NCBI GenBank assembly: GCA_025964675.1
Contig: JAOPYI010000111.1
Location: forward strand, 1 to 61,901
Direction of reading: 5' to 3'
Source of the DNA: Sphaerisporangium sp.
GTDB lineage: Bacteria; Actinomycetota; Actinomycetes; Streptosporangiales; Streptosporangiaceae
Length of the DNA: 61,901 nucleotides
In this document: positions 26,423 through 33,628 of the stretch, one piece after another
How the letters are laid out: every line of letters starts with the position of its first letter
Numbering within the stretch: position 1 is the stretch's first letter
Notes under the pieces: generated by a model
What the model was told of the DNA's origin: nothing
Seen by the model: the letters and a program-made list of their open reading frames with translations, nothing else
Databases searched by the model: none
Position numbers and translations under genes: made by a program

Positions 26423-29400
26423 TCAGCTGCAGCCGCTGGTGCTGCCGCAGCCCTCGCAGACGTAGCAACTGCCGGCCGGGCGCATCTTCGTGCCGCAGGT
26501 CAGGCAGAGCGGCGCGTCGGCCGTACGGCCCTGGTGGCTTTCGAGCGCCGGGGCCGAGCCGTTCCTCCTGGACGGGGGCTCGGCCGGGGTGGCCGTCGCC
26601 GCGGGCCTGTCGCCGGGGGTCCTCTCCTCTGGCTTCTCCTCTATGGGCGCGGACTGCGCGAGCGCCGCGGTGTCGATGATGACCTCCTGGGGCGCGCCGG
26701 GGTCCTCACCGCGCTGCTGCGCCGCCCTCTCGGCCGCCGAGAAGACCCCGAGGGCCGCCCGCTCGTCGTACGGCAGGTGGTCGAGCGCCAGCCGGCGGAA
26801 GATGTAGTCGACCACCGAGGCCGCCATGCGCACGTCCGGGTCGTCGGTCATGCCCGCCGGCTCGAAGCGCATGTTGATGAACTTGCTGACGAAGGTGTCG
26901 AGCGGAACGCCGTGCTGCAGGCCGACCGAGATCGCCACCGAGAAGGCGTCCATGACACCGGCCAGCGTGGAGCCCTGCTTGGACATCTTCAGGAAGACCT
27001 CGCCGAGGCCGTCCTCGGGGTAGGACGAGGCCGTCATGTAGCCCTTGGCGCCACCGACGGTGAAACGCGTGGTCGTGCTCGGCCGCTGGTTCGGCAGGCG
27101 GCGGCGCTTCAGCCTCGGCACCTCGATGACCTGCACGACCGGCTCCACCGCCTTCGCCTCGGCCTTCTTGGCGATGGAGAGCGGCTGGCCGACCTTGCAG
27201 TTGTCGCGGTACACGGCGAGGGCCTTCAGTCCCAGCTTCCAGCCCTCGAGGTACACCTGCTCGATGTCCTCGACGGTGGCCGACTCGGGCAGGTTCACCG
27301 TATTGTGGTTCATGATCCCGTTTGCCACGAATGCATGCGTCTCCGGGACGGAAAGGTCGTAAACCTCGACCTCCCCAGCGTCCACCACCTCAGTCACCGG
27401 CGAGAAGTGCAGGTCGACGTCAAGAACCTGCCGCAACCAGCTGGGCAGTTCCACACCCGGCAGAGTGGAGATCCGCTCGAGGGTCTCCCTGGTGACCTGC
27501 TTGGTGCGCGGGTCCAGGAGGAAGCCGAACTCGCTGCGCCAGCTTCGCACGCCGTCCCTGCCCGGCGTGCCTGGAGGGATCATCTCGTACAGTTCCCGGC
27601 CGGTGATACCGGGGATGACATCCGCAGTCCCCTGCCTGAAGTGCATCCGGAGGTAGTCCGCAGCCCGCGCCGCCTTGTCCGGCTCCAGGAAATGGACGAG
27701 GCTGACCAGCAGCTGTCCCTGCCGACCAGCGGCGTAAACCTCGTCGTAGTCCTTCCCATTGATGCTGTTGTGCTTCGTGATCCGCCCGTGCAGGACACCC
27801 AAGTTGGTAAGGACGGCCTGGAGATCGTCCAGAAGTTGAGGGCTGTCGAGGCAGATCCCCCACTTGGGCGCAGTTGCAGTGGTGACGTAGGCATCCAACC
27901 AGAGCCCCTGCAGGAAGGCGTGGACCATCGGCCACGGCGAGCGCAGAATCGGGTCAGGAATGCGCTTGTCGGAGGCGTTGCTTCCACAGCCCAGCGCCTG
28001 CATGAATTCGACGATTGTCTTTGAGGCGACCACGACCCCAGGGCACTTGCCGGGATCACGTGTGATGCGGGCCTCCAGTCCGAAGACGCTCTTCCATGCG
28101 TCTTTGATGCGGTGCAGCACCTTATCGACGGAGTTGGTGAGAACAATCGTCCAGTTGCTCCTGGAGGTATGCCCCTCAGCGGCGTAGACACCGAGGAGGA
28201 AGGCGAGATCCTCGGTCATCTCCTCGGGGAGTGTGACGGCCTTCTGGTCGCCGTGCCGAGCGGAAACGCTGATGTGACGCAGACTCGCGGGCACAGCCGA
28301 CCACATCATCGCGCCGTACTGTACGGCCACCTGGTCGCCCTCGGCGATCTCACCGAGGGTCTTCCAGACAAGGCCACCCTTCTGTGCGGTCAACAGACGG
28401 TGGGGGAACGTGCCCGTGACCGCGTGACCCGAGCGCAGACGGACACGACGCACCGGACGGACGCCGCCGTAGTAGAAGGCGTCAGTCTTCCGGTAACCGT
28501 CCAGCGAGGCGATCTCCAGCCGCTCCTCACGGAATGTGTCCTCGGACTCCCCCTTGTACAGGCTGCCGATTCGGACCAGACCTTCGGAAGAGGAGACAAG
28601 CGTCTCACCAGTGACGCACTTCGAGATGGCGCCCGACAGGAACGGCTGGGTGGCCGCCATCATGCGGACGTGCCCCATGGGAGCGATCGCCCGCTCGCCC
28701 ATGGCGCAGTCGAACACCTCGTAGTGCTCGGGCTTGAGGCCGGGGGCGTCCATGACGTGGCCGTGCTCGGCGATGTACTCGACGATGGCCTCGAGCTGCT
28801 CGGGCTGGTAGCCGAGCTGCCTGAGCGCCCTCGGGATCGTCTGGTTGACGATCTGCATCGACCCGCCACCGACAAGCTTCTTGAACTTCACCAGCGCCAA
28901 ATCGGGCTCAATGCCCGTAGTGTCGCAATCCATCATCAAACCGATGGTGCCGGTGGGTGCGAGCAATGAGGCTTGTGCGTTCCTATATCCGTTTTTGTCC
29001 CCAAGGCGGAGGCATTCCTGCCACTGCTTGGTCGCCTCGGTCAGGATCGGCCGGTCGAGGGCGTTCCCGGCGCGCAGGTCGTCGTTGGCGGCGGCGTGCT
29101 TGCGCATGACCCTCTTGTGAGGCTCGGCGTTGCGCTTGTAGCCGTCGTAGGGTCCGACGATCGCGGCAAGCTCGGCGCTGCGGCGGTAGGAGGCGCCGGT
29201 CATCAGGCTGGTGATCGCCGCGGCGACCGACCGGCCCCCGTCGGAGTCGTACGCGTGGCCGGTGGCCATCAGCAGCGCGCCGAGGTTGGCGTAGCCGATG
29301 CCGAGCTGGCGGTACGCCCGCGTGGTCTCGGCGATCTTCTGGGTCGGGAAGTCGGCGAAGGTGATCGAGATGTCCATCGCCGTGATGATCAGCTCGGTGA

Positions 29401-31666
29401 GCTTGACGAAGCTCTCGACGTCGAAGGTGTCGTCCTCGCGCAGGAACTTCAGCAGGTTGATGCTGGCGAGGTTGCAGGATGAATTGTCCAGATGTACGTA
29501 TTCCGAGCATGGGTTAGATGCGGTGATGCGGCCGGTTTCCGGGCAGGTGTGCCAGTCGTTGATGGTGTCGTCGTACTGCACGCCGGGGTCGGCGCACGCC
29601 CAGGCGGCCTGGGACATCTTTCGGAACAGCGACTTGGCCTCGATCTCCTCGATGACCTCGCCGCTCAGGCGGGCGCGCAGCCCGAACTTGTCGCCCGCCT
29701 CGACGGCGTGCATGAAGTCGTCGGAGACGCGGACCGAGTTGTTGGCGTTCTGGTACTGCACGGAGACGATGTCCTTGCCGCCGAGGTCCATGTCGAACCC
29801 GGCGTCTCGCAGCGCGCGGATCTTGTCCTCCTCGCGGGCCTTCGTCTCGATGAACTCCTCGATGTCGGGGTGGTCGACGTCGAGGACGACCATCTTGGCC
29901 GCCCGGCGGGTCGCGCCGCCCGACTTGATGGTGCCCGCGGACGCGTCGGCGCCGCGCATGAACGACACCGGTCCGCTGGCCGTGCCGCCGCTCGACAGCA
30001 ACTCCTTGCTGGAGCGGATGCGGGAGAGGTTGACCCCGGAACCGGACCCGCCCTTGAAGATCACACCCTCTTCCTTGTACCACTCGAGGATGGACTCCAT
30101 CTCGTCGTCCACCGCGAGGATGAAGCAGTTGTGCACGCGGAGGTTGCCGGAGAGGTACTCCCCGCTTTCGGTCTGGATGTCATACACCTCCATGGGACCG
30201 AGGTGCTCAATGCGGTCGATCTCCAGCCGCTTGGTGGCACGCGCGGGCAGTCCGGCCTTGTCGAAGCTTCGCTCCAGCTTCTCCGCCTTGACCGGATCGA
30301 CGAACCCGATCTCATCGGCGAACGCACGCCGGTCACCGGCGGACTGAATCCGCAGCGTCCAGCAACCCTTGCGATCTTCCCTGGCATCCTTCTTGAACCC
30401 CACTCGGGCATAGATGCCGAAGCGGAGCAGAAGCTGCTGCATACCGCGGATCAGGTTCTCAGACATCATGTCCACCTCGACGACGGTGGACTTCTCCCGA
30501 GAGCTTACGAAGCCCTCGGCCTGGAAGACGCTGCGCAGGTAGGCGACCACCACAGGTAGCGGCGCTGTGAAGAGGTGTGACGGAATCCGCATGTCGGTTC
30601 CTCGCGCCCGCAGCCTCCATTTGGCCACGAAACCCTCAAGAGCCCGTCCGTACAGTCGCGTGCGCCGGGAGTCGAGGGAGGTGTCCGAGGTCTCGACCGC
30701 GGACTCCTTGCGGTGCACCGTGGGGAACACCTTGTCGAGCGCGCCCGTCACCCACTCGAGCTCGGCCTCGGTAACCGTCATCGCCTCTATCGTGAGCGAC
30801 TTGTTGGTTCCTTCGTACTGGCCGACAAAGCCATCCGACTGCAGCCAACCGGCGAGTGCCGCCTCGTAGACCTCCTGGAAGTCGATCTCACCTTCGCCGA
30901 AAGCCTCTCGGCGATGCCATTCGAGTTCGTCCCCGGGCTTCAGGGTGCCCGCCTCGACGAAGTAGCCGGTTTCCTCCCCCGTCGCCTTCCAGACGAGGTG
31001 ATCACCGGTGACATCCAGGGTGTAGCCCGCCTTGGTGTGAACGCGCAGCACGTCCTTGACACCATTGGACTTGGTGGCGACGATCCGAGTCAGGCCGTGA
31101 GCGTCGAAGATCTTCTCCCCGACCGCGTCATCCTCCACCAGCTTCCCGATGGGCACCAGGCCCGCGGACGTGCTGACGAGAGAGTCATACGGCTGGCAGG
31201 CACTGACCTGCTGGGGTGAGGCGGTGCCGACGTTGAACCAGACCGGCGAGTTGAAGCTGAAGATCTGGTGGATCAGTGCGTGCTTCAGCTCGTGGTCGAA
31301 GATCTCGGCGTCCTCCTCGGAGGCGAAGTAGCCGTGGTCGCGGCCCGTGCGGGTGTAGACACCGACGACACGGTCGACGAGCTGCCTGAGGCTCACCTCG
31401 CGCTGCGGCGTGCCGACGGCGCCGCGGAAGTACTTGGTGGTGACGATGTTGGCCGCGTTGACCGACCAGAAGTCGGGGAACTCGACGCCGCGCTGCTCGA
31501 AGTTGATCGAGCCGTCCCGCCAGTTGGTCATGACGACGTCACGGTGCTCCCAGCGCACCTGGTCGTACGGGTGCACACCGGGCGTGGTGTGGATGCGCTT
31601 GATCTTCAAGCCCTTGTGGGGCCGCTTGCCCCCGCGTCCCACTGAGCCACTCACCGTCTCCGTCAT
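26423..31666 (-). CDS. nrdJ: B12-dependent class II ribonucleotide reductase precursor with two inteins
   Basis: A 1747-aa precursor that, after removal of two inteins, gives a 951-aa NrdJ, close to the usual actinomycete length. NrdJ reduces ribonucleotides to deoxyribonucleotides using adenosylcobalamin. Visible family features are NSPVWFNVGTASPQQVSA, the active-site NPCSEY, LAPTGTIGLMMDCDTTGIEP, and a C-terminal Cys-rich tail (CLTCGTKMRPAGSCYVC). Inteins occupy precursor residues 157-513 and 1017-1455. The ATG at 31666 has GGGGGAG upstream and is preferred over an ATG 51 nt earlier. It lies 132 bp downstream of nrdR, and tandem NrdR boxes lie upstream of nrdR, implying NrdR repression of both genes. 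Confidence 0.95.
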   Translation of the reverse strand: MTETVSGSVGRGGKRPHKGLKIKRIHTTPGVHPYDQVRWEHRDVVMTNWRDGSINFEQRGVEFPDFWSVNAANIVTTKYFRGAVGTPQREVSLRQLVDRVVGVYTRTGRDHGYFASEEDAEIFDHELKHALIHQIFSFNSPVWFNVGTASPQQVSACQPYDSLVSTSAGLVPIGKLVEDDAVGEKIFDAHGLTRIVATKSNGVKDVLRVHTKAGYTLDVTGDHLVWKATGEETGYFVEAGTLKPGDELEWHRREAFGEGEIDFQEVYEAALAGWLQSDGFVGQYEGTNKSLTIEAMTVTEAELEWVTGALDKVFPTVHRKESAVETSDTSLDSRRTRLYGRALEGFVAKWRLRARGTDMRIPSHLFTAPLPVVVAYLRSVFQAEGFVSSREKSTVVEVDMMSENLIRGMQQLLLRFGIYARVGFKKDAREDRKGCWTLRIQSAGDRRAFADEIGFVDPVKAEKLERSFDKAGLPARATKRLEIDRIEHLGPMEVYDIQTESGEYLSGNLRVHNCFILAVDDEMESILEWYKEEGVIFKGGSGSGVNLSRIRSSKELLSSGGTASGPVSFMRGADASAGTIKSGGATRRAAKMVVLDVDHPDIEEFIETKAREEDKIRALRDAGFDMDLGGKDIVSVQYQNANNSVRVSDDFMHAVEAGDKFGLRARLSGEVIEEIEAKSLFRKMSQAAWACADPGVQYDDTINDWHTCPETGRITASNPCSEYVHLDNSSCNLASINLLKFLREDDTFDVESFVKLTELIITAMDISITFADFPTQKIAETTRAYRQLGIGYANLGALLMATGHAYDSDGGRSVAAAITSLMTGASYRRSAELAAIVGPYDGYKRNAEPHKRVMRKHAAANDDLRAGNALDRPILTEATKQWQECLRLGDKNGYRNAQASLLAPTGTIGLMMDCDTTGIEPDLALVKFKKLVGGGSMQIVNQTIPRALRQLGYQPEQLEAIVEYIAEHGHVMDAPGLKPEHYEVFDCAMGERAIAPMGHVRMMAATQPFLSGAISKCVTGETLVSSSEGLVRIGSLYKGESEDTFREERLEIASLDGYRKTDAFYYGGVRPVRRVRLRSGHAVTGTFPHRLLTAQKGGLVWKTLGEIAEGDQVAVQYGAMMWSAVPASLRHISVSARHGDQKAVTLPEEMTEDLAFLLGVYAAEGHTSRSNWTIVLTNSVDKVLHRIKDAWKSVFGLEARITRDPGKCPGVVVASKTIVEFMQALGCGSNASDKRIPDPILRSPWPMVHAFLQGLWLDAYVTTATAPKWGICLDSPQLLDDLQAVLTNLGVLHGRITKHNSINGKDYDEVYAAGRQGQLLVSLVHFLEPDKAARAADYLRMHFRQGTADVIPGITGRELYEMIPPGTPGRDGVRSWRSEFGFLLDPRTKQVTRETLERISTLPGVELPSWLRQVLDVDLHFSPVTEVVDAGEVEVYDLSVPETHAFVANGIMNHNTVNLPESATVEDIEQVYLEGWKLGLKALAVYRDNCKVGQPLSIAKKAEAKAVEPVVQVIEVPRLKRRRLPNQRPSTTTRFTVGGAKGYMTASSYPEDGLGEVFLKMSKQGSTLAGVMDAFSVAISVGLQHGVPLDTFVSKFINMRFEPAGMTDDPDVRMAASVVDYIFRRLALDHLPYDERAALGVFSAAERAAQQRGEDPGAPQEVIIDTAALAQSAPIEEKPEERTPGDRPAATATPAEPPSRRNGSAPALESHQGRTADAPLCLTCGTKMRPAGSCYVCEGCGSTSGCS
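27302..28618 (-). other. Intein 2 in NrdJ (439 aa, LAGLIDADG endonuclease, one motif degenerate)
   Basis: Begins with Cys1 (CVTGETLVSSSEGLV), has block B GTFPHRLLT, and ends VYDLSVPETHAF then MNHN, followed by extein Thr. Removal joins LSGAISK to TVNLPESATVEDI, the normal NrdJ sequence. The first LAGLIDADG motif is LLGVYAAEG (acid kept). The second reads LQGLWLDAY, where the catalytic acid position is Ala, so the endonuclease may be impaired. Splicing residues look intact. Confidence 0.93.
30128..31198 (-). other. Intein 1 in NrdJ (357 aa, LAGLIDADG endonuclease)
   Basis: Begins with Cys1 (CQPYDSLVSTSAGL), has a splicing block B at VTGDHLVW, and ends with block F/G VYDIQTESGEY then VHN, followed by extein Cys. 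Between these lie two LAGLIDADG motifs with their acidic residues intact: LAGWLQSDG and LRSVFQAEG. Removing it joins SPQQVSA to CFILAVDDEM, restoring the normal NrdJ sequence. The +1 cysteine is the conserved N-terminal redox-active Cys of the reductase. Base composition appears less GC-rich than the flanking extein. Confidence 0.93.
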
Positions 31667-31798
31667 GATCTCCCCCTTCCGGGGCCCCGTGGAGCCCTCG
31701 TGTCGGAAACACTTCACAACGCCGTTCGCATCCCCCGGCGCGGGGTTCTACCAGGTCTCTTGTGTTCATCTCAGCGTCGCAGGACCGGCCCGGCGCGC

Positions 31799-32260
31799 TC
31801 AGCTTTCCTTCGCGGCTCGCGCCGCCCTCAGTTGCTCGATCTCTTCCTCGAAGTCGGCGAGCGTCTCGAAGCTCCGGTAGACCGAGGCGAACCGAAGGTA
31901 GGCCACCTCGTCCAGCTCGCGCAGCGGACCGAGGATCGCCAACCCCACCTGGTGGGCCGGGATCTCGGCCGACCCGGTCGCCCGGATACTCTCCTCGACG
32001 CGCTGGCCCAGCTGGGCCAGTGAATCTTCGCTGACGGGACGGCCCTGGCAGGCGCGGCGCACTCCGGCGATCACCTTTTCACGCGAGAACGCCTCGGTCA
32101 CCCCGCTTCGCTTGCTCACCATCAGCAGCACCGTCTCCTGGGTGGTGAACCGGCGCCCGCACTCCGGGCAGGTGCGCCGCCGTCGGATCGCCGCGCCGTC
32201 CTCTGTGGAACGGCTGTCGATGACCCTCGTATCAGGATGGCGACAGAACGGACAGTGCAC
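31799..32260 (-). CDS. nrdR: Transcriptional repressor NrdR
   Basis: A 153-aa zinc-ribbon/ATP-cone repressor of ribonucleotide reductase genes. The N-terminal zinc ribbon has cysteine pairs in [15 protein letters not shown] and [12 protein letters not shown]. The ATP-cone follows ([20 protein letters not shown]), ending in the usual acidic tail. It binds 16-bp NrdR boxes according to nucleotide state. The GTG at 32260 follows GGGAGG at 6 nt spacing and gives the canonical VHCPFC N-terminus. It is co-directional with and upstream of nrdJ. Confidence 0.95.
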
Positions 32261-32453
32261 GTGTCGCCTCCCTTTTCTCGGGGCTCCCACGAGTTACGCC
32301 GGCACGACCTCGAATGACGAGGCTCCCGAGGCCTCAACCTCAGGGAAAAGCCGCCCTATGTTTCCGCATTCGCGACATGCTTCCGGGCTCTTCCCGCTTG
32401 CACGGAAATAGGCTCGCGCCGCACTGGGGCTGACCCGAGTGCGTTGATGGGAA

Positions 32454-32914: not shown

Positions 32915-33628
32915 ATGAGCGAGCAGGAAGAGATCGGCACGGTCGTCAGCGATCTGGCGGTGCGCAGGCGTGACTCCCTCGGTCTGACCCCACGGCAACG
33001 CAAGATTCTCGAGGTGATCCGCGATTCGGTGCAGCAGCGCGGCTACCCGCCGTCCATGCGCGAGATCGGCGAGGCGGTCCAGCTCACCAGCACCTCCAGC
33101 GTGTCCCACCAGTTGACCGCTTTGCAGCGCAAGGGCTACCTGCGCCGTGACCCGCACCGCCCGCGCGCGCTGGAGGTCCGCCTGCCCGGCGAGCCGGCGC
33201 TCTGGGTCGACCCCGTCGGCCCCGGCGGGGAGGAGCCCCTGGTCACCCGGCCGACGGCCACGTTCGTCCCCCTGGTCGGGCGCATCGCCGCCGGTGGTCC
33301 CATCCTGGCCGAGGAGCGGGTGGAGGACGTCTTCGCCCTCCCCAAGCAGCTCGTGGGCGAGGGCACGCTGTTCCTGCTCCAGGTCGCCGGGGACTCGATG
33401 ATCGACGCGGCCATCGCCGACCGCGACTGGGTGGTCGTGCGTCAGCAGCCGGTTGCCGACAACGGCGACATCGTCGCGGCCATGATCGACGGCGAGGCCA
33501 CGGTGAAGACCTTCAAGCGCAAGGACGGCCACGTCTGGCTGGTGCCCCACAACGCCAACTACGACCCGATCCCGGGTGACGAGGCCAGCGTCCTCGGCAA
33601 GGTCGTGGCGGTCCTCCGCAAGCTCTGA
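32915..33628 (+). CDS. lexA: SOS repressor LexA
   Basis: A 237-aa repressor of DNA-damage genes that self-cleaves when RecA is activated. The N-terminal winged helix covers residues 24-90 ([20 protein letters not shown] then [20 protein letters not shown]). The Ala-Gly cleavage region is [14 protein letters not shown]. The catalytic Ser lies in GDSMID and the catalytic Lys in ATVKTFKR. The ATG at 32915 follows AGGAGGAG. An SOS box lies upstream. It is divergent from nrdR-nrdJ and converges with leuS. Confidence 0.96.

Follow-up and report, generated by a model that had tools for sequence, protein, structure and literature searches.

How can a ribonucleotide reductase gene keep two long inserts in its reading frame, one of them directly in front of an active-site cysteine, and what are these inserts? 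The question is raised by nrdJ of Sphaerisporangium sp., which encodes the precursor of an adenosylcobalamin-dependent (class II) ribonucleotide reductase and lies on the minus strand (26423..31666) of the window, i.e., the whole 61,901-nt stretch of DNA that was analysed. We are highly confident that this NrdJ carries two independent full-length class 1 inteins with homing-endonuclease domains, which are predicted to excise themselves and persist as selfish elements. The single open frame extends from 26423 to 31717 and would yield 1764 aa from the GTG at 31717; the ATG at 31666, which is preceded by GGGGGAG and yields 1747 aa, is the likely start, with the GTG being possible. Without the inteins, NrdJ has 951 aa from the ATG and 968 aa from the GTG. 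The protein matches NCBIfam NF005122 with 1555.7 bits (cut-off 859) and contains the Ribonuc_red barrel (PF02867), the class II N-terminal domain (PF08471), and the TSCPD domain (PF12637), and by these three domains and its three active-site cysteines it is classed as a class II reductase. The regulator gene nrdR (31799..32290, minus strand; TIGR00244, E 1.1e-47) is found directly upstream on the same strand, with lexA (32915-33628) in divergent orientation.

All parts of the precursor are encoded on the minus strand. The N-extein (31199..31666) comprises residues 1-156 of mature NrdJ and ends with SPQQVSA. It is followed by the 357-aa intein 1 (30128..31198), which starts with CQPYD and ends with RVHN (His356-Asn357), the +1 residue being Cys157, so that the junction pattern reads A/C...HN/C, the slash marking the junction. 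The middle extein (28619..30127; mature residues 157-659) contains Cys157, Cys363, and Cys374, and leads to the 439-aa intein 2 (27302..28618), which starts with CVTGE and ends with MNHN (His438-Asn439), with Thr660 as +1 residue and the pattern K/C...HN/T. The C-extein (26426..27301; mature residues 660-951) has a Cys-rich tail at its end. The original prediction had given this 1747-aa precursor with its coordinates, its lengths before and after excision, and the junctions at both inteins, and the open frame and our alignment returned the same values; translation also confirmed its statement that both inserts begin with Cys and end in HN, with Cys as the next extein residue after intein 1 and Thr after intein 2.

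The junctions were mapped by aligning the proteins with a fixed penalty for a single insert, irrespective of its length, and this placed them at 156/157 and 659/660 of mature NrdJ. Excision had been expected to restore a 951-aa NrdJ with exact junctions, and both this alignment and the same-genus genes agree with that. As had been suggested, we inspected close relatives for empty sites: NrdJ was read directly in six of the ten further genus genomes, and all six genes are uninterrupted at both sites and codon-exact, without gain or loss of a codon. Over residues 20-699, the exteins of these genes share 93-95% identity with the Sphaerisporangium sp. NrdJ. At thresholds of E 1e-20 for intein 1 and E 1e-10 for intein 2, the ten other genus genomes contain no match to either intein; when the threshold is relaxed to E 1e-5, G001 and G009 match intein 1 weakly (about 31% over 100-120 residues), outside their NrdJ. 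The inserts might be regarded as ordinary lineage-specific NrdJ domains that are retained in the protein, a view for which the open frame speaks, and nothing beyond it. With codon-exact empty sites in the relatives, with the matches to intein-specific models and folds described below, and with an insert 1 that would part residue 156 from the active-site Cys157, we regard this as scarcely conceivable.

The suggested search of both inserts against intein models gave matches to intein and LAGLIDADG models in each. Pfam PF14890 is matched by intein 2 above the curated cut-off (E 8.7e-15, 55.3 bits) and by intein 1, when searched alone, below it (E 4.5e-05, 23.7 bits, cut-off 35.8). LAGLIDADG_3 is found above its cut-off in both (E 3e-17 for intein 1, 1.5e-09 for intein 2), as is the N-terminal splicing region (NCBIfam TIGR01445), and the C-terminal region (TIGR01443) is matched by intein 2, with no match in intein 1. 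Block B reads TGDH in intein 1 and TFPH in intein 2, and Cys1, the block-B His, and the His-Asn end are invariant in 31 aligned rows of the intein 1 family and in 8 rows of intein 2. The best AlphaFold model of intein 1 has a pLDDT of 94.2 and that of intein 2 one of 80.2; the five intein 2 models differ widely, with the other four ranging from 70.1 to 39.5, and the last six residues are below 50. The PDB structures closest to both models are full inteins with homing endonuclease, including TliVMA, PhoVMA, PI-PfuI, and PI-SceI. The top Foldseek matches are solved inteins (E 1.0e-21 and 3.5e-25), and the whole-model TM-scores by query length are 0.65 and 0.68 for the two inteins. As modelled, both inserts thus have the HINT fold. 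With exact empty sites, splicing residues, and this fold, both are class 1 inteins by these criteria, and splicing is predicted. Each intein would be translated inside the reductase and would then excise itself, with Cys1 as the first nucleophile, Cys157 or Thr660 at +1 as the second, and cyclisation of the terminal Asn, leaving an unaltered 951-aa NrdJ. From the sequence, we infer that both inteins splice in the cell.

The endonuclease regions, whose limits were set by eye, cover approximately residues 103-315 of intein 1 (30254..30892, minus strand) and approximately residues 130-320 of intein 2 (27659..28231, minus strand). Intein 1 has both LAGLIDADG motifs with their catalytic acids, Asp122 and Glu228, and its endonuclease likely cuts the empty site; among its relatives, L204 has Gly at position 122, and L167 is without both acids. 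Glu148 and Asp242 are kept in intein 2, and its second motif, LQGLWLDAYV, is non-canonical, being one residue short and having Ala for Gly when compared with TliVMA. The acid position of this second motif is occupied by Asp in 14, by Glu in 2, and by Gly in 2 of 18 rows (17 distinct, as L092 repeats L164). Judged from these residues, it is uncertain whether the intein 2 endonuclease cuts the empty site.

The position of intein 1 is of particular functional interest. Cys157, Cys363, and Cys374 align with residues 134, 322, and 333 of the Thermotoga maritima NrdJ (1xje), which we take to be the active-site Cys triad. The alignment of Cys157 with the T. maritima Cys134 bears out the earlier claim that intein 1 directly precedes the N-terminal active-site cysteine, and Cys157 would thus double as the second nucleophile of intein 1. 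Because intein 1 directly precedes this residue, the unspliced NrdJ precursor should be inactive. Intein 2 is located directly before Thr660. Across the NrdJ relatives, intein sites immediately precede all three active-site cysteines (157, 363, and 374). The chance of this is 0.002-0.009 in a random draw from 20 to 41 conserved Cys/Ser/Thr positions, and 0.003-0.03 if the seventh site (363/S364, see below) is added, estimates that are rough because three sites rest on one or two loci. The insertions at 373/374 (L070 and L078) lie directly before the third active-site cysteine, and the one at 363/364 (L076) directly after the second.

Intein 1 relatives (E <= 1e-20) are found in 40 of 341 family genomes, that of the window included, and in 19 of 68 genera, and in all 40 carriers NrdJ is interrupted at site 156; for 28 of them this rests on exact mapping and for 12 on BLAST pieces whose ends join within residues 153-157 or overlap in this place. 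The group of family genomes includes NrdJ equal to those of Acrocarpospora corrugata, a member of Streptosporangiaceae by its genus, of Actinomadura atramentaria, and of two Nonomuraea. Among named genomes, intein 1 relatives occur at 56 loci with labels of several phyla. Two MAGs labelled Micrarchaeota and Klebsiella pneumoniae (L067 and L070) have intein 1 relatives in NrdJ, for which mis-binning or transfer is possible. Intein 2 is rarer: relatives at >=68% identity are present in 7 of the 341 family genomes, again including that of the window, and a phylum-wide draw at E <= 1e-60 gave 12 of 396 genomes, the window's among them; the nine loci fetched from these phylum-wide matches all read ISK/C...NHN/T. 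A further 45 family genomes pass E <= 1e-10 against intein 2 at only about 25-32% identity, and those that were mapped represent other NrdJ sites.

Site mapping took in 108 ORFs. Among 97 distinct NrdJ, filled sites are 156 (66), 549 (36), 362 (21), 659 (8), 373 (2), and 224 (1), numbers that describe an intein-rich sample and are not equivalent to prevalence. Left out of the mapping were 30 intein-free family NrdJ (L011-L040), which aligned in one piece from residue 1 or 4 to 951, the short loci L097-L130 and L132-L154 (most of which recur in full-length form), L001-L005 and L009, and ORFs with fewer than about 300 aligned residues (e.g., L046, L075, L081); two ORF fragments scoring below 1200 were left out of the count of 97. 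In the divergent NrdJ L078, L083, L084, L087, and L088, the alignment did not put the first insert's left junction at SA/C; L083 and L088 were counted under site 156 and are absent from the tree and from the intein/extein identity comparison described below. Both 373 sites were moved by one residue by hand, so that the inserts are Cys-first and His-Asn-last. The intein-free NrdJ among the 97 are six, the same-genus ones. The pair 156 and 659 alone is seen in three of the 97, including that of the window, and a fourth NrdJ combines it with a third intein; the NrdJ of L086 contains four inteins. Rare sites are 373/374 in L070 and L078, 224/225 in L086, and 363/364 in L076. The latter, 363/S364, is a seventh site known from this one locus with a 161-aa insert, and it stands outside the six-site counts and identity comparisons. 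NrdJ of actinobacteria and some other bacteria is a hot spot for inteins: the loci that we read have seven or more points of insertion.

At site 156, the copies include full inteins, forms with mutated endonuclease (L204, L167), part-deleted forms (L194, L162), and mini-inteins of 136-149 aa, in which the endonuclease is lost and the splicing ends are kept. Mini-inteins were seen in L089, L091-L095, L164, L166, L169, L175, and L195-L202, some of which represent the same genome in two collections. Read as sequences, this series from full to mini is as expected of a decaying homing intein, and NrdJ copies could be a convenient natural series for intein invasion, decay, and host effect.

In a tree of the splicing domains, the inteins group by site, with five changes of site, the least possible, against a mean of 30.9 after shuffling. 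The tree contains 54 of 132 distinct inteins, drawn at random with at most 14 per site plus those of the window. Sites 156 and 659 each form one side of a branch with a support of 99. A single long row makes two changes necessary for site 362, and several long branches meet in the tree, as the program warns. As the inteins group by site, it is very unlikely that one of the two inteins of nrdJ is a copy of the other. At site 156, inteins are more alike than the corresponding exteins in 288 of 2016 pairs, and at site 659 in 7 of 28; for site 549 the number is 8 of 630, and for site 362 it is 3 of 210. The pairs at sites 156 and 659 would fit with transfer between distant hosts. For example, a Nitrospirae MAG shares 61% identity with the window in intein 2 and 49% in the extein, and an Acidimicrobiia MAG shares 69% in intein 1 and 62% in the extein. 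The nearest intein 1 is 84% identical (its extein 89%) and the nearest intein 2 76% (its extein 85%). In both pairs, the inteins are less similar than their exteins, which speaks against a recent arrival from a known donor.

Sliding identity to the six same-genus genes gave no clear dip at either insertion point that would indicate a co-converted tract (0.894 around site 156 and 0.928 around 659, with 0.794-0.967 elsewhere). A scan of viral contigs, which finds close relatives only, gave no confirmed relative of either intein. Three phage records match intein 1 at 23-36% identity and 88 match intein 2, all below 60% and at 25.6-26.7% among the 20 matches listed; eight plasmids match intein 2 (21.5-22.6%) and one matches intein 1 (25.2%). 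None of these records is a close relative, and we regard none as the vehicle. A comparison of dN/dS between endonuclease and splicing domain in 13 pairs gave both values only for L193/L203 and partial values for L204/L205, and none for the rest, probably due to saturation. The tree and the identities point to two separate, site-specific, horizontally spread elements, whose families occur in several classes and phyla, and as such both inteins would have persisted in this nrdJ.

What does this mean for the supply of DNA precursors? It had been proposed that dNTP supply depends on splicing, and this was not borne out, as a class Ia reductase preceded by a cobalamin riboswitch is encoded in the same genome. 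NrdA and NrdB are encoded on contig 21, and a second NrdA begins on contig 275, where the contig end truncates it after its first part. A cobalamin riboswitch lies upstream of each nrdA (L001 3872-4111 on contig 21; L003 1286-1485 on contig 275). The window itself contains no riboswitch or other Rfam family at threshold within its 61,901 nt. At least five cobalamin riboswitches occur in the genome, and one of them is closely followed by a downstream gene for a full-length CobN-like protein; the riboswitches and this one gene suggest that the strain makes B12. For Streptomyces coelicolor, NrdJ has been named the primary reductase of vegetative growth, and it has been suggested that the riboswitch-controlled NrdAB serves when adenosylcobalamin is lacking (PMC4991794). 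By analogy, this strain would presumably use its two systems similarly. While NrdJ would need splicing, any dependence of dNTP supply on it is conditional on B12, because the genome has the riboswitch-controlled class Ia NrdAB, and splicing would at most limit dNTP supply when B12 keeps NrdAB off. The DnaB replicative helicase of the same genome also contains an intein (L008 184-2913, contig 11).

The presence of NrdAB could also mean that a loss of NrdJ is tolerated, and one or both inserts might then be decayed inteins that no longer splice, leaving NrdJ as a dead gene. The GC3 of the inteins (0.82 and 0.80), which is lower than that of the exteins (0.93-0.96), could be taken in the same sense. 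However, the splicing residues are kept, the frame is open, the extein is as similar to the six intein-free relatives as described above, and the riboswitches and the CobN-like protein suggest that B12 is made. We consider decay very unlikely.

Another idea is that intein 1 serves as a redox gate, in which oxidation of Cys157 blocks both splicing and catalysis and the cell switches to NrdAB. Cys157 is indeed both the +1 residue and the residue aligned with the active-site cysteine, both nrdA copies have their riboswitch, and there is a precedent in one of the two inteins of mycobacterial DnaB (PMC6195587). However, of the 11 genus genomes, a single one has intein 1 at full-length identity, and close relatives therefore manage without such a gate; furthermore, full, mutated, and deleted endonucleases at site 156 are what a selfish element leads one to expect. 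A redox gate is thus improbable, and we are slightly more doubtful still about its extension to a redox- and B12-linked switch, in which oxidised cells would keep an inactive precursor and NrdAB would supply the dNTPs. If it were true, inteins before all three active-site cysteines could let the same chemistry gate the whole NrdJ family.

In conclusion, the two NrdJ inteins are real and ordinary: they represent a new host genome for a known kind of element and no new mechanism, in a genome that also carries an insert-free second reductase beside the intein-bearing NrdJ. A literature search for intein together with Streptosporangiaceae found no paper. Related elements have been described in other groups. 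A survey by Soucy et al. (2014) lists Actinomadura atramentaria under the allele rir1-b (PMC4071816), and the NrdJ of this species (L047) contains one intein, at site 156, which is 76.5% identical to intein 1. From the organism and its single site, we infer that rir1-b is probably site 156; intein 1 would then belong to this allele, and only the host genome would be new here. The survey likewise describes full and mini inteins side by side and spread across phyla, and lists the further RIR1 alleles rir1-g, -k, -l, and -m (PMC4071816), which resemble our case in that several inteins occur in one ribonucleotide reductase. The same likeness, several inteins per reductase, is seen in Pyrococcus abyssi, for which a work cited in PMC5050341 reports three ribonucleotide reductase inteins. 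More generally, inteins in the catalytic centres of reductases, and of other proteins that act in replication, are well documented (PMC8772380, PMC5050341, PMC5874633). In Mycobacterium smegmatis, DnaB, like NrdJ a replication enzyme, contains two inteins of different properties, one of which is redox-sensitive; DnaBi1 is a class 3 intein, whereas both NrdJ inteins are Cys-first and look like class 1 (PMC6195587). Comparable in its location is the NrdB intein of Aquifex aeolicus, which lies between di-iron ligands and thus, as in NrdJ, in the catalytic centre of a reductase; it belongs to a class I small subunit rather than to NrdJ, and it is spliced out to give an active enzyme (PMC8772380).
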